Origin: Candidatus Accumulibacter sp. ACC003
GTDB taxonomy: Bacteria > Pseudomonadota > Gammaproteobacteria > Burkholderiales > Rhodocyclaceae
Assembly (NCBI RefSeq): GCF_907163085.1
Contig: NZ_CAJQTX010000011.1
Location: forward strand, 124,001-188,000
Direction: 5' to 3'
DNA: 64,000 nucleotides
Shown here: piece by piece, positions 1,681-38,137 of the stretch
How the letters are laid out: the number at the start of each line of letters is the position of its first letter
How positions within the stretch are numbered: position 1 is the first letter of the stretch
Program-made: the position numbers and the translations under genes
Notes under the pieces: generated by a model
What the model was told of the DNA's origin: nothing
The model's input: the letters and a program-made list of their open reading frames with translations, nothing else
Database searches by the model: none

Positions 1681-1929
1681 CGTCTGCTCCTCCTTGCACT
1701 CCTAGCGAAGCTTGGTTTATGCCATAAGAAAATCATGGCCGTCAAAATAAAGTGCCACGTGCAATTCCGGAATTCTACCTACATTCCCGGCCGGGATCAG
1801 GAAATCTGAACTTGCGTGTAAGTATTCGGTGAACCCGTAGCCCCCGCTTTTTTGGTCGGCGTGGTTCAGTCAGCGATTGGCGGGTAGACCGGAAATCTGG
1901 ACTGGACACAGCAGCGGAAATCCGGCACC

Positions 1930-3630
1930 ATGCGGCGCATGGACACGGGTGCGGACATCATTGGCGGAGGATCGGCGGCAAGTCACCGCCAAGTGGCGCC
2001 GTTCGCCGAGGTGTTGGTGACGTTGACCAAGGAGCAGGAAATCAAGCTCCGCTGGGAGGCCAGCTTCTGGCGGAGCCAACATCGACAAGCGCTGGTTCGG
2101 TTGGCGCAATCGGAGGCCGCTCATCGGGTGGAAATGGCGCAAGCGGCGGCGCGCGAGGCGGCCTTGCGCAGCGAACTGGAGCAGGCCAAGGGCAAGATCC
2201 GCGATCTGCAAAAACGCCTGTTTGGTCGCAAGTCAGAACGCTCTTCGGGAGCCGAGAAGAACCCGGCGGCGGACCAAAAATCGTCGCGAGCTCGAGGTCA
2301 GCAACCGGGAGCAGCGGGTCACGGGCGGAACCCGGAAAGTCACTTGCCGACGCAGATCGAGGTCATCGACATCGACTGCCCGCATTGCCCGGACTGTGGT
2401 CTGGGCTACGTCGACTTTCCCGGCACGGAAGACAGTGAAGTCCTCGAGATCGAGGTCAAGGCCTACCGCCGGAAGATCTGCCGGCGGCGCTACCGGCGGA
2501 CCTGTCAGTGTTCGGGCGCGCGGGGTATTCTGACCGCGCCACCGCCGGCACGATTGATCCCGCGTGGAAAGTACGGCGTGTCGATCTGGGTGCACCTGCT
2601 GCTGTCGAAGTTCTTGTACGGCCAGCCGACGCATCGGCTTCTGCGAGACTTGTCCGACCACGGACTGACGCTCTCGGCAGGAACGGTGGCCGGCGGACTG
2701 CGTGCCTTGGCACCGCTGTTCGAGCCGCTTGAAGAAGCACTGCTTGGCCAACTACGCAGCGAGAAACAGTGGCACGCAGACGAGACCCGCTGGCGGGTCT
2801 TTGCCGAGACCGAAGGGAAGGTCGGACATCGCTGGTATTTCTGGGTGTTCCACGGCCCATCGGTCATCCACTTCGTGCTCGACCCGAGCCGCTCGGCGGC
2901 GGTGCCGATCCGGGAGCTCTCCGGTAGCGCCGGAGGAGTCATCATCTGTGATCGCTATTCGGCCTACAAGAAGCTCGCGCGAGTCCTTGACCACTTCATT
3001 CTGGCTTTCTGCTGGGCACATCAGCGGCGTGATTTCCTGGAACTGGCCAACGCCCATCCGGAGCTCGCGGACTGGGCACTGGCCTGGGTCGAGCAGATCG
3101 CTCAGCTCTACCACTTGAATGGACGGCGCCTGGAAGTCCGTAGCGACCCAGTACAGTGGGCCGAACGCGACCGCGCCTTGCGGCAGGCGATCACGCAAAT
3201 GGCCAGTCAACGGGAAAGCGAACTGGCGAACCCGGCGCTCAAAATGCCGGCGAGCAAGGTGCTGCGAAGCATGCGCAAACATTGGTCCGGCCTGACCGTC
3301 TTTGTCGACCGCCCCGAGGTGGCGATGGACAATAATGCCGCCGAGCGCGCACAGCGCACGCCGGTGGTCGCACGCAAGAACTTCTATGGGTCGGGCAGTC
3401 TCTGGTCCGGCGCACTCGCCGCGACGATGTTCAGCTTGCTGCTGACGCTGCGCTTGTGGGGAATCAACCCGCGCACCTGGCTGACGGCGTATCTGGAGGC
3501 CTGCGCCGCCAACGGCAACCTGCCGCCGACGGACTTGAGTGCCTTTCTGCCCTGGGCGATGGCGACCGATCGACTGGCTCAGATGCGTGGCATCCCGGTC
3601 GATCAGAGCCGTCCCATCGATAGCTCGTGA
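1930..3630 (+). CDS. IS66 family transposase (TnpC type)
   Basis: This 566-residue protein is the DDE transposase of the surrounding element. A coiled-coil N-terminal part (about 60-105, ending in LQKRLFGRKSER) is the IS66 leucine-zipper-like region. A cysteine cluster CPHCPDCGLGY near 150 is the zinc-finger-like segment. The catalytic core shows WHADETRW, ICDRYSAY and DNNAAERAQR, matching the D, D and E positions of IS66 TnpC. The last four bases overlap the start of the DUF4338 gene (ATGA-like coupling), so the two are probably co-translated. The start is uncertain: an ATG at 1939 or an internal site near LTKEQEIKLRW is also possible. Confidence 0.9.
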   Translation: MRRMDTGADIIGGGSAASHRQVAPFAEVLVTLTKEQEIKLRWEASFWRSQHRQALVRLAQSEAAHRVEMAQAAAREAALRSELEQAKGKIRDLQKRLFGRKSERSSGAEKNPAADQKSSRARGQQPGAAGHGRNPESHLPTQIEVIDIDCPHCPDCGLGYVDFPGTEDSEVLEIEVKAYRRKICRRRYRRTCQCSGARGILTAPPPARLIPRGKYGVSIWVHLLLSKFLYGQPTHRLLRDLSDHGLTLSAGTVAGGLRALAPLFEPLEEALLGQLRSEKQWHADETRWRVFAETEGKVGHRWYFWVFHGPSVIHFVLDPSRSAAVPIRELSGSAGGVIICDRYSAYKKLARVLDHFILAFCWAHQRRDFLELANAHPELADWALAWVEQIAQLYHLNGRRLEVRSDPVQWAERDRALRQAITQMASQRESELANPALKMPASKVLRSMRKHWSGLTVFVDRPEVAMDNNAAERAQRTPVVARKNFYGSGSLWSGALAATMFSLLLTLRLWGINPRTWLTAYLEACAANGNLPPTDLSAFLPWAMATDRLAQMRGIPVDQSRPIDSS

Positions 3631-4484
3631 AGCCTTATTGCGGGCGTCACTTTACCGACGACGAACTGCAGGCCCTCTGCCGCCTGATCGAAGCCCATCC
3701 TGGCAGCAGCCGCGCGCAACTGTCGCGCCAGGTGTGTGAGCTCTTCGACTGGCGTAAGCCCAATGGCGAGCTGAAGGATATGACCTGCCGGGTGGCCATG
3801 CTGCGTATGCAGGCCGACGGCCTGCTCACCCTGCCGGCGGCACGACGGGCCGCTCCTCGCCAACCCGAGTATCTGCCTACTCACGCCACCGATCCACAAC
3901 CGTTGCTCACCCAGCCGGTGCATGAACTGCCGCCGCTGCGTCTGCATCAGGTCGTCGGTTCGGCGAACTCGCGTCTGTGGAACGAGTACATCGCCCGCTA
4001 CCACTATCTCGGCCACACGCCCATGGCGGGCAGTCAGAGCCGCTACTTCGTCTTCGCCGGCGAGACCCTGGTCGCCTTGCTCAGCTTCGGCGCCAGCGCC
4101 TGGAAACTCGCCGCGCGCGAGCAATTCATCGGTTGGCACGATGAGCAGCGACAAAGGAACCTGCAACTGGTGGTGAACAATGCCCGCTTTCTGATCCTGC
4201 CCTGGATCCAGTGCAAGGGCCTGGCCTCCAAGATCCTCTCGCTTATGCAGCGGCAATTGCCCAAGGACTGGCTGGCGCGCTACGGCTACCGCCCCGTACT
4301 ACTCGAAACCTTCGTCGAGACGCCCCGCCATCGCGGCACCTGCTACCAGGCCGCCAACTGGATCAAGGTCGGCCAAACCGCCGGCCGAGGCAAGAAGTGC
4401 CCCACCCGCAAGTCGATCCTCCCGATCAAGGATATCTGGCTCTATCCCCTTCACCGATCCTTCCGATCAGTCCTCTGCCGCTAA
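3627..4484 (+). CDS. DUF4338 (DruA-like) protein encoded in the IS66-like element
   Basis: This 285-residue protein belongs to DUF4338, the domain of DruA from the Druantia anti-phage system. The N-terminal ~90 residues look helical and DNA-binding-like. The domain itself begins near 115 and shows YHYLGH, ALLSFGASAWK, EQFIGWHD, LVVNNARFLILP, SKILSLMQRQLPKDW, VLLETFVETPRHRGTCYQ and AANWIKVGQTAGRGKK. The same motif series occurs in the N-terminal half of the ISAs1 transposase at 20549 and 38033. It is translationally coupled to the transposase and lies inside the inverted repeats, so it is a passenger or accessory factor of the element. Its biochemical role is unknown; no other Druantia genes are present here. 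Confidence 0.85.
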   Translation: MKPYCGRHFTDDELQALCRLIEAHPGSSRAQLSRQVCELFDWRKPNGELKDMTCRVAMLRMQADGLLTLPAARRAAPRQPEYLPTHATDPQPLLTQPVHELPPLRLHQVVGSANSRLWNEYIARYHYLGHTPMAGSQSRYFVFAGETLVALLSFGASAWKLAAREQFIGWHDEQRQRNLQLVVNNARFLILPWIQCKGLASKILSLMQRQLPKDWLARYGYRPVLLETFVETPRHRGTCYQAANWIKVGQTAGRGKKCPTRKSILPIKDIWLYPLHRSFRSVLCR

Positions 4485-4510
4485 CCCGCCTCGGCAATGG
4501 CGCTGGCGCG

Positions 4511-5180
<670 letters not shown>

Positions 5181-5185
5181 CCACG

Positions 5186-5554
5186 TCAGTCGGCGTTGCG
5201 CAGGATCTGCTTGACGACGATGCCGCCCATGCTGTGGCTGATGAAGGCGAGCGGACGCTGGCCCAGTCCCTCGATGCTCAGCAGGTCCAGCACTTGATTG
5301 CCGCGATCGGCGAGCGGCATGGATTCTTCCTTCCACTTCGACCCGCTCGCCGCGTAGCCGAGCGTCCAGATGCCGAGGCCCGGCACATCCTCGGCGAGCC
5401 AGTTGGGCCAGAAGCTGCCGATGTTGTCTTTGTCGGCCATCCAGGTGGTCCACGAATCGCCGCCCAGGCCGTGCACGAACACCACATCCATGGCGCGCCG
5501 GGGATCGTCGCAACCGGCGATCTTCTGGAGATCGGGCCGGCGGTTGATCAGCAT
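5186..5554 (-). pseudogene. Alpha/beta-hydrolase gene truncated by the IS3 element
   Basis: The 122-residue fragment starts at an ATG with GGGAG upstream, 21 bp after the TIR gene. It carries DVVFVHGLGGD (oxyanion-hole region) and FISHSMGGIVVKQIL (the nucleophile elbow around the catalytic serine). The reading frame then stops at RNAD where IS3 sequence begins, so the catalytic acid and histidine are lost. Lipase-like hydrolases of this type often sit beside TIR, EAD and STAND genes in bacterial conflict loci. The intact ancestor was probably an effector or effector-processing enzyme co-transcribed with the TIR gene. The visible remnant should be inactive. Confidence 0.75.
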
Positions 5555-5575
5555 TGGTGACTCCCTTGTTATTTT

Positions 5576-6442
5576 TCACCTTGTCGTCGCTGCCGGCGGA
5601 TACGATGCTGCGGGCGCAGCCGCTGCCGGCTTTTGCTGCGCCGTTGCCAGGGGTGCCGCTAACACCATTCCCAGGTGCTGCAGGACGGCGTGGTAAACCT
5701 TGACCAGTGTGGCATGCTGCGCCTCGGGCGAGAGCGTCGCCAGCGGCACGGCGCCCGCACCGCTCGCGGCCATGAGGTGTGCGACCGGCGAACCGGCAAT
5801 CGACATCGGGCGAAGCGGCAACCACAGGATGAGCATCTCGCCCTTGCGCTGTGCTGCCAGCGCCGGTTTGATTTCGCATTCGGCTGCGCCGCAGGTGGGC
5901 CCGAAGTAGTCGTCGCTGGCGAGCATGATCATGATGCGGGCGCGCGCCAGGTGTTCGTCGATTTGTCTTTGAAAGTCGCTGCCGCTCGGAATCTTTGTGT
6001 CGTCCCAGATCAGCTCGTGCAGCCGGGAATCGGCGTCGAGCACCTGCCGCAGCTGCGTGTGCCATTGGCGATCGCGGTGACGGTAGCTAATGTAGACGAG
6101 ATCGCGCACCGGCGAGGCGGCGTTCGAAGACATCGCCGTGGCTTGGCCACATCGCTGGTCGAGCGCGTCGATCAACGCCTGGAATTCGGCCTGGCGCTCA
6201 TCGCCCGCCGCGCCGCGTACGGTTTCGAGCAGAAGCGCTAACGCATGCCGCGAGCCGAGGCAGCCTCGATCGAGCAGAGTGCGTACGCAGGTGACCACGA
6301 AATCCGCTGTTGCGCCGCGCTGCGGGATGCTGTCGTAGACCTTGCGCCGCTCGCCACTGAATGCCAGCGTCAGCCAGGTGTCACGACGCTCCTCGGCCAT
6401 GTGGGGTGTGAGCAACTGCGCGGCGAGCTTGAAGATGTCCAC
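5576..6442 (-). CDS. TIR-domain protein with N-terminal effector-associated-like domain
   Basis: This 288-residue soluble protein has a small helical N-terminal module (about 1-95, ending RQAEFQALIDALD) resembling the effector-associated domains described in NTP-dependent bacterial conflict systems. A TIR domain follows (about 112-235): VRDLVYISYRHRDRQW, IWDDTKIPSGSDFQRQIDEHLARARIMIMLASDDYF and CGAAECEI, where the glutamate is placed like the catalytic residue of NAD-cleaving TIRs. The C-terminus is Ala/Pro-rich. The start is a GTG without a clear ribosome site, so it could be further in. The partner hydrolase downstream is broken, so the module may be only half functional. No STAND NTPase or adaptor is adjacent. 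Confidence 0.8.
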   Translation of the reverse strand: MDIFKLAAQLLTPHMAEERRDTWLTLAFSGERRKVYDSIPQRGATADFVVTCVRTLLDRGCLGSRHALALLLETVRGAAGDERQAEFQALIDALDQRCGQATAMSSNAASPVRDLVYISYRHRDRQWHTQLRQVLDADSRLHELIWDDTKIPSGSDFQRQIDEHLARARIMIMLASDDYFGPTCGAAECEIKPALAAQRKGEMLILWLPLRPMSIAGSPVAHLMAASGAGAVPLATLSPEAQHATLVKVYHAVLQHLGMVLAAPLATAQQKPAAAAPAASYPPAATTR

Positions 6443-6902
6443 GATTTTTTTTGTAGCTTGGGGTATGCAATCGGACTGGCAAGCATATTACCGCACTCTG
6501 CGGCGGCTTAGTCACGCCTGGATTCTGCTGAGGATGCCGGCGGAGAGCCGCTGTCGTTCCCGTTTCATCGCGGCGGCTTTTTTCTAGCGCATCCCGAACG
6601 CTTTCACTATCCCGCTCTGACGCCGATAACCGACTGCTGATTTCCGCTCCGGACACGCTCAGCCCCCGAGTCATCGTTACGGCAAGAGTACGAACGCAAC
6701 TTGAGAGGCATGACCACCGAGCCGGTGAAACTGGCTGCACTACTGGCGCGACACGCTCGCGGGAAACACGGCCCGCGACCGCATGCACGTCCGGTGGCTA
6801 TAAAGCCGCCAACTGGATCAAGGTCGGGATACTCGGCAGTGCGCCTCGGCCACGCGCTCGCCGAATAGTTACCGATGCCTCATGCCCGCGAAGTGGGTCG
6901 AA
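6443..6902. other. Non-coding gap between the TIR gene and guaA
   Basis: No convincing gene. The left part is AT-poorer spacer with a T-run at 6443-6450 next to the TIR start. The right part contains the decayed DUF4338-element end annotated separately at 6805-6872. Short frames here show no recognisable domain. Confidence 0.5.
6805..6872 (+). pseudogene. Relic of a DUF4338-bearing IS66-like element (3' end)
   Basis: The 23 bases at 6805-6827 are identical to bases within the DUF4338 gene at about 4349-4371, encoding the AANWIKVG motif. After a deletion, the sequence ends in CGCCGAATAGTTAC at 6859-6872, close to the right terminus of the IS66-like element (GGCCGAATACTTAC). Gene interior and element end keep the same order and orientation, so this is an internally deleted remnant of a related insertion immediately downstream of guaA. 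It is only 68 bp, and the terminal part is an approximate match. Confidence 0.6.
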
Positions 6903-8468
6903 TCATTCCCACTCGATCGTCGCCGGTGGCTTGCCCGAGATGTCGTAGACCACCCGGTTGATGCCGCGGACTTCGTTGATGATCCGGTTCGAGACTTTGC
7001 CGAGCAGGCTGTGCGGCAGTTCGGCCCATTGTGCGGTCATGAAGTCCTGTGTTTCGACGGCGCGCAGGGCGACGACGTATTCGTAGGTGCGGCCGTCGCC
7101 CATCACCCCCACCGACTTGACCGGCAGGAAGACGGCGAAGGCCTGACTGGTCTTTTCGTACCAGCCTGACGCGCGCAGCTCGTCGATGAAAATGGCGTCG
7201 GCGCGACGCAGCAGGTCGGCGAACTCGGGCTTCACCTCGCCGAGAATCCTGACACCGAGGCCGGGGCCGGGGAAGGGGTGGCGATAGACCATGTCGTGGG
7301 GCAGGCCGAGCGCGACGCCGAGTTCGCGTACTTCGTCCTTGAACAGTTCGCGCAGCGGCTCAAGTAGCTTCAGATTGAGTTCTTCCGGCAGGCCGCCGAC
7401 GTTGTGATGGCTCTTGATGGTGTGCGCCTTCTTGGTCTTGGCGCCGGCCGATTCGATCACGTCGGGGTAGATCGTTCCCTGCGCCAGCCATTTGGCGTTG
7501 GCGAGCTTGTTGGCCTCGGCCTGGAAGACCTCGACGAACTCGCGGCCGATGATCTTGCGCTTCTGTTCAGGATCGGTCACCCCCTGCAGATGGCCCATGA
7601 ACTGCGCGGCGGCGTCGACATGCACCACCTTGAGACCGAGATTGCGGGCGAAGGTCTGCATCACCTGCTCGGTTTCGTTGAGACGCAGCAGGCCGTTGTC
7701 GACGAAAACACACGTGAGTTGGTCACCGATAGCGCGCTGGATCAGCGCTGCCGCAACCGACGAATCGACGCCGCCGGAGAGGCCGAGGATGACTTCCTCG
7801 TCGCCGACCTGCGAACGGATTCTGGCGACCGCTTCGTCGACATAGTCGGGCATGTTCCAGTCGTGGCCGCAGCCGCAGATGTCGCGCACGAAGCGGCCGA
7901 GGATGTCCTTGCCCTTGATGGTGTGCGTGACCTCGGGATGAAATTGCACCGCGTAGAATTTGCGCTCCTCGTCGGCCATCGCCGCGATCGCCGTCGATTC
8001 ATTGCTGCCGATCAACTTGAATCCCGGGGGCAGGGCGGTGACCTTGTCGCCGTGGCTCATCCACACGTCGAGTAGCCCGTGGCCCTCGCCGTTGCGTCTA
8101 TCCTCGATTCCCTTGAACAGTTCGGAGTGGCCGCGGGCGCGCATTTCGGCGTAGCCGAATTCGCGTTTGTTCGAGCTCTCGACGCTGCCGCCCAACTGCG
8201 TGGCCATCAGCTGCATGCCGTAGCAGATGCCGAGGACCGGCACACCGAGTTCGAAGACCACCTGCGGGGCTTTGAACTCGGCGACGTCGTAGACCGAATT
8301 GGGGCCGCCGGAAAGGATGATTCCCTGCGGCTGGAAGTCGCGGATGAAGTCCTCGGAGACGTCGTACGGATGCAGCTCGCAATAGACCTGTTGTTCGCGG
8401 ACGCGGCGGGCGATCAACTGCGCGACCTGCGAGCCGAAGTCGAGAATCAGGATCTTTTGATGGGACAT
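6903..8468 (-). CDS. guaA: GMP synthase (glutamine-hydrolysing)
   Basis: GuaA converts XMP to GMP using ATP and glutamine, the last step of de novo guanylate synthesis in the cytosol. The 521-residue length is normal. The N-terminal class-I glutamine amidotransferase shows the nucleophile motif GICYGMQLM and the histidine in QFHPEVTHT. The ATP pyrophosphatase domain has the P-loop [11 protein letters not shown]. The C-terminal dimerisation domain ends in PPATIEWE, a strongly conserved terminus. It follows guaB by 58 bp in the same direction, the common guaBA operon order. Confidence 0.98.
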
Positions 8469-20340: not shown

Positions 20341-20513
20341 GGCGAACCCTCCTAGCAAAGCCGCGAAAACAATGATCGGCGAAAGCGCGGCATCAGTCGC
20401 CTGCGCATTGTGCGGCGATCATTCGCTGGCCGCAATGGCTGGCTGCCGGCGGCACAGGGTGGATTTGTCCTCTCAGGCAACGCACGGGCAATCAAGCAGT
20501 TAGTTCTTCCCCC

Positions 20514-20542
20514 TGGACATCTGCGCCGGAAGTCCGTATAAA
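20514..20542 (+). promoter_or_regulatory. ISAs1 transposase promoter, copy 1
   Basis: TGGACA (20514-20519), 17 bases, TATAAA (20537-20542) is a near-consensus sigma-70 promoter inside the left end. The expected transcription start coincides with the ATG at 20549, and no ribosome site precedes that codon, so the mRNA may be leaderless. Confidence 0.6.
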
Positions 20543-20548
20543 TGGCGC

Positions 20549-21622
20549 ATGGAAAGCGTTCTTGGTGCATTGCGTGTTCGCTTGGTGGGCAAGAGCGAAG
20601 AGGCTCGCTATCGGGAGTTGATGGCAGAGCATCACTACCTGGGCGACCTGGCGAAGATCGGGCACACGCTTTGGTACGTGGCCACCTACGGCGAAAAGTG
20701 GACGGCCCTGCTGAGTTTCTCTGCGGCGGCCTGGAAATGCGGCGTTCGTGACCGCTGGATCGGCTGGGACTATCGGCATCAGTACGATCGCTTGGGCCTG
20801 GTCGCCAACAACAGTCGCTTTCTGATCCTTCCCGATTGGCATTACCCCAATCTCGGCTCCAAGGTGCTCTCGCTGTGCGAGCGACGGGTCGCCGAGGATT
20901 GGCAGGCGCATTTCGGGAAGCCGCTGTTACTGCTGGAGACCTTTGTGGACCCCTCGCGCTTCCAGGGGACCGTCTATCGCGCCGCGAACTGGACGCCTCT
21001 GGGGCTGACGCAAGGCTTTCGCCGCACCCGAGAAGGCTACAGCGCCCACCCGACGTCGCCCAAAGTTGTCTTTGTTCGCCCCTTGCAGGCGGACGCTCGC
21101 GGCCAACTTTCCCGCTCGATACTCAACCCCCGCTATCGCACAGGAGCGCCCAGGATGATGCTCACCGCCGAACAGATGCGCACGCTTCCCGATTTCTTTG
21201 CCGGCATCGCCGACCCGCGGCGCGCGCAAGGAAGGCGTCACCCCCTTCCTGCCGTTCTGGCCATCGCCACGGCGGCGGTCTTGTGCGGAATGCGGGGCTA
21301 CAAAGCCATCGCCGGGTGGGCCAAAGACCTCACACCGAAAGCACGCGAGCGTTTCCGCTGTCGTCGCGAGAAGGGCGTTTACCGCGTACCCAGCGAGTTC
21401 ATCATTCGTGACGTCCTGATCCGTGTCGATCCCATGGCGCTCGATCAAGCGTGTCAGCAGTGGAACAAGGCCTATGCTCAAGACGACCCCAGTCTGGCGG
21501 TCGACGGCAAGACCATGCGCAATGCCCATGACGAGCACGGTCAGCAAGCACACATCATGAGCGTGGTCGGGCATCAGACCGGCGTGTGTCACACCCAAAA
21601 AAAGTCGGCACCTTGCCCGTAA
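20549..21622 (+). CDS. DUF4338-ISAs1 transposase fusion, first frame (copy 1)
   Basis: Residues 1-185 form a DUF4338 (DruA-like) domain: EHHYLGDLAKIG, ALLSFSAAAWK, RDRWIGWDYRHQYDRL, LVANNSRFLILPDW, LLLETFVDPSRFQGTVYRAANW. Residues about 200-357 begin an ISAs1 transposase: LPDFFAGIADPRRAQGRRHPLPAVLAI, KAIAGWAKDL and SLAVDGKTMRNA with the first catalytic Asp. The frame ends at 21622, past an A_AAA_AAG slippery heptamer at 21598-21604. A -1 slip there joins it exactly to the second frame, giving a protein near 600 residues. Ordinary ISAs1 transposases lack the N-terminal domain. Confidence 0.9.
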   Translation: MESVLGALRVRLVGKSEEARYRELMAEHHYLGDLAKIGHTLWYVATYGEKWTALLSFSAAAWKCGVRDRWIGWDYRHQYDRLGLVANNSRFLILPDWHYPNLGSKVLSLCERRVAEDWQAHFGKPLLLLETFVDPSRFQGTVYRAANWTPLGLTQGFRRTREGYSAHPTSPKVVFVRPLQADARGQLSRSILNPRYRTGAPRMMLTAEQMRTLPDFFAGIADPRRAQGRRHPLPAVLAIATAAVLCGMRGYKAIAGWAKDLTPKARERFRCRREKGVYRVPSEFIIRDVLIRVDPMALDQACQQWNKAYAQDDPSLAVDGKTMRNAHDEHGQQAHIMSVVGHQTGVCHTQKKSAPCP

Positions 21623-22335
21623 ATGGCGGGGACGAGCTCAAGCAGACCAATGAAATCGGGATGTTCATACCCCTGCTCGATGCGATCGATATTCAGGGCA
21701 AGGACATCACCGCCGACGCGCTACTGACACAGCGCAAGCTGGCGACCTACCTGGTGGAGCGCAAGGCGCACTATCACTTCACGGTCAAAGGCAATCAGCC
21801 AACACTGCAAGCCGATATCGCGCTCCTCTTCCAGGATCGGAAGGGGGCAGACTTCGTGGCGGTTTCGCCACCTGACCATGGTCGGATCGAGACTCGGCGT
21901 ATTTGGTGCAGCAATGCCCTCAACGCCTATCTCGACTTCCCGTATGTCGGCCAGGTGTTCTTGATCGAGCGCGAAGTGCTGCACAAGAAGAGCGGCAAGC
22001 GGACGCACGAAATCGCTCTCGGGATCACCAGTCGCCCTCCAGAACAGGCCAGCCCACAGCAAATCCTCGCCATCAATCGCGGCCATTGGTCGATAGAGAA
22101 CCGCTGTCACTACGTCATCGACTGGAACTACGACGAGGACCGTAGCCGTATTCGGACTGGTTACGGACCCGAGAACATGTCACGCCTGCGCCGCTTTGCC
22201 GTCGGAATCCTGCACCACTTCTCCGACGGCAAAACCAGCATTTCCGAAAAAATGCGCCACCTCAACCGCAACATCCGATTGGTCTTCGACTACCTGCGCA
22301 TGACCAAAAATTCTACAGGCCACGTATCACCTTGA
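21586..22335 (+). CDS. ISAs1 transposase, second frame (copy 1)
   Basis: This frame continues the transposase after the -1 slip: TQKKVGTLPVNGGDELKQTNEIGMFIPLL, DITADALLTQ (second catalytic Asp), FTVKGNQPTLQ, and GHWSIENRCHYVIDWNYDEDRSRIR (catalytic Glu). The listed GTG start at 21586 overlaps the first frame and is probably not the natural start; translation most likely arrives by frameshifting. The C-terminus ends normally with the FDYLRMTKN segment. Confidence 0.88.
   Translation: MSHPKKVGTLPVNGGDELKQTNEIGMFIPLLDAIDIQGKDITADALLTQRKLATYLVERKAHYHFTVKGNQPTLQADIALLFQDRKGADFVAVSPPDHGRIETRRIWCSNALNAYLDFPYVGQVFLIEREVLHKKSGKRTHEIALGITSRPPEQASPQQILAINRGHWSIENRCHYVIDWNYDEDRSRIRTGYGPENMSRLRRFAVGILHHFSDGKTSISEKMRHLNRNIRLVFDYLRMTKNSTGHVSP
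21598..21604 (+). promoter_or_regulatory. Programmed -1 frameshift heptamer A_AAA_AAG (copy 1)
   Basis: In the zero frame the codons CAA AAA AAG form the canonical slippery heptamer used by dnaX and many IS elements. The -1 frame then reads AAA AAA GTC GGC, restoring a normal ISAs1 sequence. The twin element has the same site at 36978-36984. Confidence 0.75.
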
Positions 22336-22477
22336 TCCCGGCACGAGAACAAATTTACCGTGGCCGGCGGCATCTTCCCGTGGCGCAAAATCCCGGACGG
22401 AATGGTGCTGCTCGGGGCTCGCCGGCGCTAATTGCTGCCCCCTGACCATCGCTGCGGCGCCTGGTGCAGGCTTAGGC

Positions 22478-36153: not shown

Positions 36154-36246
36154 TGTTTTTCCTCCTGGCGGAAATCTAACACAGAAGAATGAATCTCGTT
36201 CGCCGCTGCCACCCGCCTTCACGGTAAATTTGTTCTCGTGCCGGGA

Positions 36247-36996
36247 TCAAGGTGATACGTGGCCTGTAGAATTTTTGGTCATGCGCAGGTAGTCGAAGAC
36301 CAATCGGATGTTGCGGTTGAGGTGGCGCATTTTTTCGGAAATGCTGGTTTTGCCGTCGGAGAAGTGGTGCAGGATTCCGACGGCAAAGCGGCGCAGGCGT
36401 GACATGTTCTCGGGTCCGTAACCAGTCCGAATACGGCTACGGTCCTCGTCGTAGTTCCAGTCGATGACGTAGTGACAGCGGTTCTCTATCGACCAATGGC
36501 CGCGATTGATGGCGAGGATTTGCTGTGGGCTGGCCTGTTCTGGAGGGCGACTGGTGATCCCGAGAGCGATTTCGTGCGTCCGCTTGCCGCTCTTCTTGTG
36601 CAGCACTTCGCGCTCGATCAAGAACACCTGGCCGACATACGGGAAGTCGAGATAGGCGTTGAGGGCATTGCTGCACCAAATACGCCGAGTCTCGATCCGA
36701 CCATGGTCAGGTGGCGAAACCGCCACGAAGTCTGCCCCCTTCCGATCCTGGAAGAGGAGCGCGATATCGGCTTGCAGTGTTGGCTGATTGCCTTTGACCG
36801 TGAAGTGATAGTGCGCCTTGCGCTCCACCAGGTAGGTCGCCAGCTTGCGCTGTGTCAGTAGCGCGTCGGCGGTGATGTCCTTGCCCTGAATATCGATCGC
36901 ATCGAGCAGGGGTATGAACATCCCGATTTCATTGGTCTGCTTGAGCTCGTCCCCGCCATTTACGGGCAAGGTGCCGACTTTTTTTGGGTGTGACAC
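36247..36996 (-). CDS. ISAs1 transposase, second frame (copy 2)
   Basis: Translation is identical to the copy 1 second frame: DITADALLTQ and GHWSIENRCHYVIDW supply the second Asp and the Glu of the DDE triad. It is reached by -1 frameshifting at 36978-36984. The stop codon lies 27 bp inside the element end. Confidence 0.88.
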   Translation of the reverse strand: MSHPKKVGTLPVNGGDELKQTNEIGMFIPLLDAIDIQGKDITADALLTQRKLATYLVERKAHYHFTVKGNQPTLQADIALLFQDRKGADFVAVSPPDHGRIETRRIWCSNALNAYLDFPYVGQVFLIEREVLHKKSGKRTHEIALGITSRPPEQASPQQILAINRGHWSIENRCHYVIDWNYDEDRSRIRTGYGPENMSRLRRFAVGILHHFSDGKTSISEKMRHLNRNIRLVFDYLRMTKNSTGHVSP

Positions 36997-38033
36997 ACGC
37001 CGGTCTGATGCCCGACCACGCTCATGATGTGTGCTTGCTGACCGTGCTCGTCATGGGCATTGCGCATGGTCTTGCCGTCGACCGCCAGACTGGGGTCGTC
37101 TTGAGCATAGGCCTTGTTCCACTGCTGACACGCTTGATCGAGCGCCATGGGATCGACACGGATCAGGACGTCACGAATGATGAACTCGCTGGGTACGCGG
37201 TAAACGCCCTTCTCGCGACGACAGCGGAAACGCTCGCGTGCTTTCGGTGTGAGGTCTTTGGCCCACCCGGCGATGGCTTTGTAGCCCCGCATTCCGCACA
37301 AGACCGCCGCCGTGGCGATGGCCAGAACGGCAGGAAGGGGGTGACGCCTTCCTTGCGCGCGCCGCGGGTCGGCGATGCCGGCAAAGAAATCGGGAAGCGT
37401 GCGCATCTGTTCGGCGGTGAGCATCATCCTGGGCGCTCCTGTGCGATAGCGGGGGTTGAGTATCGAGCGGGAAAGTTGGCCGCGAGCGTCCGCCTGCAAG
37501 GGGCGAACAAAGACAACTTTGGGCGACGTCGGGTGGGCGCTGTAGCCTTCTCGGGTGCGGCGAAAGCCTTGCGTCAGCCCCAGAGGCGTCCAGTTCGCGG
37601 CGCGATAGACGGTCCCCTGGAAGCGCGAGGGGTCCACAAAGGTCTCCAGCAGTAACAGCGGCTTCCCGAAATGCGCCTGCCAATCCTCGGCGACCCGTCG
37701 CTCGCACAGCGAGAGCACCTTGGAGCCGAGATTGGGGTAATGCCAATCGGGAAGGATCAGAAAGCGACTGTTGTTGGCGACCAGGCCCAAGCGATCGTAC
37801 TGATGCCGATAGTCCCAGCCGATCCAGCGGTCACGAACGCCGCATTTCCAGGCCGCCGCAGAGAAACTCAGCAGGGCCGTCCACTTTTCGCCGTAGGTGG
37901 CCACGTACCAAAGCGTGTGCCCGATCTTCGCCAGGTCGCCCAGGTAGTGATGCTCTGCCATCAACTCCCGATAGCGAGCCTCTTCGCTCTTGCCCACCAA
38001 GCGAACACGCAATGCACCAAGAACGCTTTCCAT
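36960..38033 (-). CDS. DUF4338-ISAs1 transposase fusion, first frame (copy 2)
   Basis: A 357-residue product identical to copy 1: N-terminal DUF4338 domain (EHHYLGDL to YRAANWTPLG), then the start of the ISAs1 transposase with SLAVDGKTMRN. Identity of both frames, including the shift site, between two independently inserted copies argues that the frameshift is part of the functional element and not a late mutation in one copy. Confidence 0.9.
   Translation of the reverse strand: MESVLGALRVRLVGKSEEARYRELMAEHHYLGDLAKIGHTLWYVATYGEKWTALLSFSAAAWKCGVRDRWIGWDYRHQYDRLGLVANNSRFLILPDWHYPNLGSKVLSLCERRVAEDWQAHFGKPLLLLETFVDPSRFQGTVYRAANWTPLGLTQGFRRTREGYSAHPTSPKVVFVRPLQADARGQLSRSILNPRYRTGAPRMMLTAEQMRTLPDFFAGIADPRRAQGRRHPLPAVLAIATAAVLCGMRGYKAIAGWAKDLTPKARERFRCRREKGVYRVPSEFIIRDVLIRVDPMALDQACQQWNKAYAQDDPSLAVDGKTMRNAHDEHGQQAHIMSVVGHQTGVCHTQKKSAPCP
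36978..36984 (-). promoter_or_regulatory. Programmed -1 frameshift heptamer A_AAA_AAG (copy 2)
   Basis: Same slippery heptamer and codon phase as in copy 1, read on the minus strand. Confidence 0.75.
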
Positions 38034-38039
38034 GCGCCA

Positions 38040-38068
38040 TTTATACGGACTTCCGGCGCAGATGTCCA
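38040..38068 (-). promoter_or_regulatory. ISAs1 transposase promoter, copy 2
   Basis: TGGACA (38063-38068) and TATAAA (38040-38045), 17 bases apart on the minus strand, identical to copy 1. Confidence 0.6.
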
Positions 38069-38137
38069 GGGGGAAGAACTAACTGCTTGATTGCCCGTGC
38101 GTTGCCTGAGAGGACAAATCCACCCTGCACCCGCCTT

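Follow-up and report, generated by a model that had tools for sequence, protein, structure and literature searches.

Two described proteins come closest to the subject of this analysis, a protein domain carried by insertion sequences in a 64,000-nt stretch of Candidatus Accumulibacter sp. ACC003 (contig NZ_CAJQTX010000011.1, positions 124,001 to 188,000; the whole stretch is called the window here, and its first letter is position 1). The first is Mom, the DNA-modification enzyme of phage Mu (PF25680; structure 8bv8). Mu is a transposable phage, which Mom protects; mom is one of the late phage genes, lies next to com and carries no transposase fusion. The second is DruA of Druantia type I, which shares its Pfam family (PF14236, DruA, formerly DUF4338) with the proteins described below. 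The GNAT-likeness of DUF4338 is already in print: the domain is called GNAT-like in some DndF proteins, in which its fusion partner is a DNA-phosphorothioate restriction protein, and the available part of that account ties it to neither transposons nor Mom (PMC10853773). According to the available part of another report, six Synechococcus phages have proteins that are DruA-like by structure (PMC12774648); our sequence search of phages did not recover these. A literature search found DUF4338 or DruA linked to neither insertion sequences nor Mom, with most subscription journals outside its reach.

An insertion sequence is usually viewed as a transposase and its ends only. In the window, PF14236 is found as a separate gene coupled to the transposase gene (tnpC) of an IS66-type element, and as an N-terminal fusion to the transposase of two ISAs1-type elements (coordinates in Table 1). 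All results given here are computational. We suggest that the domain is a portable accessory enzyme of insertion sequences, of Mom type and probably DNA-modifying, and put the probability of this at about 0.45; catalysis, a DNA substrate and a benefit are the parts of it that we infer.

The domain in its host genome

The IS66-type element is complete (2,716 bp); its inverted ends are 24 bp long and have 2 mismatches, and an 8-bp target duplication flanks it. A TnpC with DDE_Tnp_IS66, the ends and the duplication place it in the IS66 family. The start of the DruA/Mom-like gene overlaps the stop of tnpC by 4 bp; by the open reading frame (ORF) list, these are the only genes between the ends, and no further conserved gene fits. 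Compared with IS66 elements, it thus shows only tnpC and the DruA/Mom-like gene, tnpA and tnpB models not having been searched. Other copies in the genome have identical end bases, different flanks and 8-bp duplications (for example CTAAAAGC, CCGGATGG and GACACTGC, at loci L057, L060 and L061).

The two ISAs1-type elements, each 1,908 bp long, encode identical proteins and are flanked by 10-bp duplications; a further copy (L045) has a 9-bp one. Their second frame (ORF B) alone reaches 135.8 bits with the ISAs1 transposase model, above its cut-off of 70, and the part in ORF A reaches 50.8, which makes them members of the ISAs1 family. They resemble ISAs1 elements in this, in DDE_Tnp_1_assoc and in their 10-bp duplications, and differ in the N-terminal DruA/Mom-like fusion and in a frame split at A_AAA_AAG (see below).

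Both proteins belong to one domain family. PF14236 is matched over its Pfam cut-off (27 bits) by the IS66-linked protein, P0001 (141 bits; E-value in Table 1), and by ORF A of the ISAs1 fusion, P0002 (89.6 bits, E = 2.7e-25); the two are 40% identical over 180 residues (E = 4e-37), and all 49 aligned members match the model. The matches are not full-length, covering positions 32-222 (P0001) and 50-220 (P0002) of 297. An initial annotation of the window had proposed this shared family, placed it inside mobile elements and added a relic near 6805, and all three points stand. The relic is real but small: it aligns with the window gene over 31 bp (score 47, against 32 for the best of 100 shuffles scored on the same target) and with a variant copy over 56 bp (score 53, a score without its own shuffle control).

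The same annotation reported no other Druantia genes nearby. This holds for the DUF1998 domain of DruE (PF09369), which has no match in the whole host genome; DruB, DruC and DruD were not searched for. The Druantia label itself does not fit these proteins. The PADLOC DruA model (PDLC00002) gives 16-26 bits for five transposon-borne proteins (18.2 for P0001) and nothing for P0002, versus 309-652 bits for three stand-alone DruA; with DUF1998 absent as well, membership in Druantia was rejected. A Druantia-like defence or interference gene travelling as insertion-sequence cargo is what the Pfam family name, and PF14236 being shared with DruA, might suggest. The PADLOC scores and the missing DUF1998 speak against it, transposase fusion and partner exchange (see below) suit an accessory better than cargo, and this already disfavoured reading seems very improbable. 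Annotation by the DruA Pfam name will mislabel transposon parts as Druantia.

The host genome has 83 PF14236 domain matches, carried by four transposase types: IS66; ISAs1; a DDE_Tnp_1_assoc type, with the domain as a separate gene upstream of the transposase (9-bp duplications in, for example, L041 and L042); and Tn5-like IS4 transposases with Tnp_DNA_bind (L031 also with Dimer_Tnp_Tn5), to which it is fused N-terminally. Counted within 1.5 kb and on the same strand as transposase matches, the domain stands beside all 30 IS66 TnpC of the window's type (200-204 bits); of 10 further IS66 matches, one has it, and this one is a broken copy of the window's element. It accompanies 23 of 25 split-frame ISAs1 (both misses have it about 3 kb away) and none of 11 long single-frame ones, these 36 rows having been chosen from 72 of which the remainder are ORF A parts or fragments; it also accompanies 4 of 11 Tn5-like matches and all 20 DDE_Tnp_1_assoc transposases of the third type. 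This comparison of elements with and without the domain, of a kind that the initial annotation had suggested, was made in the window's own genome because close TnpC relatives are few in the family: there are TnpC matches in 51 of 150 family genomes, and among the matches listed only G801, besides the own genome, is close (59%, part); most of the rest share about 24-38% identity, and each has one short match of at most 60%. The host-genome copies are near-identical, which points to recent spread of intact units more than to long-term selection.

In a degraded second IS66-type unit (L034:14981-16621), a TnpC-like N-terminal fragment, judged by eye and without a Pfam match, follows the DruA-like gene; this arrangement differs from that in the window.

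Partner exchange in other bacteria

A scan of genome contigs gave at least 531 relatives, of which the best 80, from many phyla, were examined; as the best-scoring, these lean towards the IS66-linked form. In 68 of the 80, a transposase is fused to the domain or lies on its strand no more than 900 bp away, versus in 26 of 695 control windows placed at random in these loci at a distance of 2 kb or more. The partners are of IS66 type (gene before, after or rarely fused), Tn5-like IS4 (before, after or fused), and DDE_Tnp_1_assoc, DUF4277, DDE_Tnp_1 and rve integrase-like types; genome searches were the source of the ISAs1 fusions and of one Tn5-like form in which the gene precedes the transposase. 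Pfam and NCBIfam models by themselves sort the partners into the following sets (IS66, PF03050; Tn5-like, PF14706/PF02281; DDE_Tnp_1_assoc and ISAs1, PF13808/NF033564; DUF4277, PF14104; other DDE_Tnp_1, PF01609; rve_3, PF13683). The group names ISNCYa, IS4b, DDE158 and IS1634 are labels of this analysis, as is the grouping into eight types used below, and some of the group models were seeded with the gene's own neighbours (DDE158 with L129 and L158 together, the latter without a Pfam match and the kinship of the two judged by eye).

Of 12 loci tried, 8 have both genes enclosed by inverted repeats that match at 18-20 of 20 positions (L097, L113, L121, L129, L142, L145, L158 and L166). The repeats at L115 and L175 are weaker, and none were found at L143, where the contig starts too near, or at L165. 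Among evenly drawn genomes, one query has matches in 17 of 369 from the class and another in 20 of 398 from the phylum, the own genome being included in both.

Parsimony on one tree gives at least 12 changes of partner type among eight groups (the minimum being 7) and 20 changes of arrangement. The tree has 92 rows, 15 of them without a partner, and holds 70 of the 80 loci, ten near-copies or truncated or broken loci being left out; 12 of its 89 inner branches are open. Five Tn5 fusions (88/79), four genes before Tn5-like transposases (100/99) and four ISAs1 fusions (100/100) form single groups. From the partner changes across the tree, the domain has been repeatedly exchanged between transposons; the tree gives no direction. 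A portable accessory activity recruited by different transposases, which the initial annotation had proposed from two families, is thus supported by four types in the host genome and eight overall by our grouping. The annotation had also considered that one element might simply have captured the other. In the tree, the window's IS66-linked gene is placed apart from the ISAs1 fusion, so that neither derives from the other; the group nearest to the ISAs1 fusions is, however, an IS66-linked one in which tnpC follows the gene (92/92, not starred; it includes the degraded unit of the host genome), and capture from such a lineage is possible.

The DruA-like part is under purifying selection, with a ratio of nonsynonymous to synonymous substitution rates (dN/dS) of 0.12-0.34 in 18 pairs, which were hand-chosen and are not independent, several with dS above 1. 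In 13 of the 18, the transposase has the higher ratio of the corresponding proportions (pN/pS), one transposase pair being saturated. The DruA-like part is kept about as strictly as the transposase. Having moved among many transposase families, as gene or as fusion, the domain points to a shared need of DDE transposition for which we have met no name.

As a further possibility, it could be a passenger, passive or of addiction type (a GNAT toxin, for instance), that takes no part in transposition. Some GNAT toxins are known to pair with small DNA-binding antitoxins, and in an Ignavibacteria contig (L164, 3838-4984) a DruA-like gene stands alone between perfect 19-bp inverted repeats, with no transposase. 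These repeats match what we take to be the IS50 outside end with 4 mismatches, but when the locus was shuffled 20 times, 52 hits with 6 mismatches or fewer turned up (the 4-mismatch level uncounted), making this likeness weak evidence. The tree joins the L164 gene to the Tn5-partnered L076 (100/69); no target duplication was seen at L164, and the genome has no further end of this kind within 1 mismatch. The L164 element may be a non-autonomous derivative which has kept the gene and lost the transposase. Repeated direct fusion to a transposase (ISAs1, Tn5-like) is unlike the behaviour of a passenger, however, and the ORF lists of the 2.7-kb and 1.9-kb elements hold no further recognized gene (antitoxin models were not searched); a passenger role seems improbable.

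A viral origin was rejected: P0001 has no match in 50,697 phage records at E ≤ 0.01, and one scan of IMG/VR gave only 3 loci, from 2 contigs. Spread by plasmids was likewise rejected, on just 2 PLSDB records. Three DruA-like genes, of Desulfosarcina and a deltaproteobacterium, have no neighbouring transposase and group together (L152, L154 and L155; 100/97); they may be domesticated.

Predicted fold and kinship to Mom

An AlphaFold2 model of P0001 (49 sequences, pTM 0.76; mean pLDDT in Table 1) has an N-terminal three-helix part, like a helix-turn-helix (HTH), at residues 11-63, followed by a GNAT part (104-284). No solved structure was found by sequence search. In a Foldseek search of the PDB, the model has 49 matches at E ≤ 0.001, and all 50 matches listed are acyltransferases by title: FeeM (3.5e-5), phage Mu Mom in second place (4.1e-5), spermidine acetyltransferase (5.5e-5) and other GNATs; against BFVD, the third match is a phage Mom (1.2e-7). 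The domain is, as predicted by this model, of GNAT fold.

Pfam Mom (PF25680) matches 29 of the 49 aligned members at E ≤ 0.1 (best 2e-4), and the five families listed for these members at that threshold include no further acetyltransferase family. A profile-profile comparison with 11 Mom proteins gives E = 1.3e-7 (9.7e-8 without the single stand-alone DruA row), compared with 0.023 for the reversed profile, 0.1 for the best of 20 column shuffles and 0.24 for five stand-alone DruA against Mom. In the resulting alignment, H126-Y127 of the transposon-borne form falls on H48-Y49 of Mom, R187 on R101, S201 on S114, E231 on D139, G237 on G146, Y240 on Y149, A242 on A151 and N244 on N153. H126, S201, E227 and Y240 are present in all 48 rows and position 231 is D or E in 47; among the Mom-type positions (HY, R, S, D/E, Y), Y127 is present in 43 of 48 and the others in 47-48. 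Mom S114 (S124 in the structure's numbering) is alanine in a chain titled "inactive mutant." The transposon-borne form is thus like Mom in GNAT fold, in these positions and in A-x-N-F/W, and differs from it in an invariant E227 and W170 and usually in the HTH-like part.

Five stand-alone proteins, taken as DruA by model match alone and not by Druantia operon context, give a profile-profile E of 7.5e-9 with the transposon-borne family. They cover positions 2-4 to 293-297 of the 297-position model, against about 32-222 in the transposon-borne proteins. All five have glycine at the S201 position and lack AANW, and four lack HY (L071 has an H-W one column off); the tyrosine is kept. None of the five matches Pfam Mom at E ≤ 0.1. 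Judged by E-values, Mom (1e-7, 11 sequences) is little more distant from the transposon-borne branch than DruA is (7.5e-9, 5 sequences). The alignment with Mom provides a concrete, testable active-site hypothesis for DruA-family proteins.

A GNAT acyltransferase need not act on DNA: the substrate could be a protein (transposase, replication clamp or nucleoid protein) or RNA, the effect being to tune transposition or host physiology. GNATs acting on protein and RNA are common, and in fold the domain resembles acetyltransferases of protein, polyamine and RNA roughly as closely as it resembles Mom. One argument against this is that Mom is the only Pfam acetyltransferase family among those matching the 49 members at E ≤ 0.1; another is the conservation of the Mom-type residues. 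We consider it unlikely.

It is also conceivable that the domain is non-catalytic, its GNAT fold and HTH-like part forming a DNA-binding or targeting adaptor for transposases; the N-terminal three helices, and a position beside or fused ahead of transposase DNA-binding domains, would suit this. The residues aligned with the Mom active site are invariant across very diverse partners, however, and the ISAs1 fusion has no HTH-like part and retains the GNAT part alone, indicating that the GNAT part matters. An adaptor is distinctly unlikely.

Where the initial annotation had considered target choice or interference as functions, the sequence points to a Mom-like GNAT enzyme. As a Mom-type enzyme, the domain would represent a GNAT-fold branch between phage Mu Mom and Druantia DruA, carried by many DDE-transposase insertion sequences as a coupled gene or transposase N-terminal fusion. 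The reaction would be of Mom type, the acylation of a base (probably adenine) in DNA of the element itself or at its ends, and the HTH-like part or the fused transposase would bring the enzyme there. The mark might regulate transposition, or shield the element's DNA, once excised or freshly inserted, against restriction and nucleases; it may protect transposition intermediates, and it may control when transposition takes place. If DNA is indeed modified, this would be a chemical mark encoded by transposons themselves. We suggest more tentatively, and with some doubt, that insertion sequences of many unrelated transposase families carry an exchangeable module with which the element, or its transposase where the two are fused, writes a bulky base modification on the element's own DNA, for epigenetic control or protection of transposition, and that DruA is a domesticated offshoot with a changed Mom-type active site.

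Several observations weigh against a Mom-type accessory enzyme. Foldseek scores FeeM and spermidine acetyltransferase like Mom, so that the fold alone does not choose Mom. PF25680 misses 20 of the 49 members at E ≤ 0.1, and scores P0001 (18.3 bits) and P0002 (13.3) below its Pfam cut-off of 27.1. The controls of the profile-profile comparison were reversed, shuffled and stand-alone DruA profiles, other GNAT families not being among them. Twelve of the 80 relatives have no transposase within reach, and no motif common to the ends of different elements was seen by eye. Finally, domain-free ISAs1 (11 of 11 long single-frame ones), IS66 (9 of 10) and Tn5-like (7 of 11) elements coexist in the host genome; the domain is therefore not essential for transposition in general.

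The split ISAs1 frame and neighboring features

In the ISAs1 fusions, ORF A stops five codons past A_AAA_AAG, and ORF B runs on in the -1 frame. The heptamer is present in all eight own-genome copies with an exact anchor. Heptamer and break are both found in 6 of 13 ISAs1 loci inspected, namely the own copy L045 and five diverged elements from two other genomes (G249: L080, L088, L093; G247: L083, L090); the other seven have no A_AAA_AAG break site. On a second look, at six loci, a third G247 copy (L095, itself broken) has one A fewer at the junction, and L182, L180, L185 and L188, some of them cut or degraded, show no such junction. In a fusion on a Thiodictyon plasmid (L209), the junction is passed in one frame and the break comes later. 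The own-genome ISAs1 copies without the domain have a single frame (ten of 393 codons, one of 376), as do four other long-frame ISAs1 inspected (377-392 codons). Programmed -1 frameshifting is the natural reading of this arrangement: ribosomes that stay in frame would make the DruA-like protein with the N-terminal part of the transposase, and those that shift the full fusion. Such frameshifting would belong to this one lineage and is not general to the fusions.

Table 1. Positions of the insertion sequences, their parts and the relic in the window.
Feature	Position	Strand	Evidence or remark
Left 8-bp target duplication, IS66-type element	1810-1817		ACTTGCGT
IS66-type element, complete	1818-4533
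Left inverted end, IS66-type element	1818-1841	+	GTAAGTATTCGGTGAACCCGTAGC
IS66 family transposase TnpC	1930-3630	+	PF03050 3.6e-59; NF033517 5.9e-90
DruA/Mom-like GNAT gene (predicted fold)	3627-4484	+	PF14236 6e-41; AlphaFold2 mean pLDDT 92.3
Right inverted end, IS66-type element	4510-4533	-
Right 8-bp target duplication, IS66-type element	4534-4541		ACTTGCGT
Relic of DruA-like gene, around AANW motif	6772-6827	+
Left 10-bp target duplication, ISAs1-type copy 1	20445-20454
ISAs1-type element with DruA-like fusion, copy 1	20455-22362	+	ends and 10-bp duplication GCCGGCGGCA
ORF A: DruA-like domain (residues 8-157), then DDE_Tnp_1_assoc and transposase N-terminal part	20549-21622	+
ORF B: remaining ISAs1 transposase, -1 frame	21586-22335	+	NF033564 1.8e-39; PF01609
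Slippery heptamer A_AAA_AAG, candidate ORF A to ORF B shift	21598-21604	+
Right 10-bp target duplication, ISAs1-type copy 1	22363-22372
ISAs1-type element with DruA-like fusion, copy 2	36220-38127	-	ORF A 38033-36960; ORF B 36996-36247; duplication AAGGCGGGTG
A_AAA_AAG heptamer, ISAs1-type copy 2	36984-36978

In one public plasmid record, a gene under a DUF4338 match is labelled plainly "ISAs1 family transposase." Beside the IS66-type element, frames resembling IS3-type orfA/orfB (4511-5127, minus strand; translation, by eye) adjoin its right end. Between it and a GMP-synthase-like gene (6903-8468) are frames resembling, again by eye, a TIR-domain protein and an alpha/beta-hydrolase-like protein (5124-6442, minus strand).

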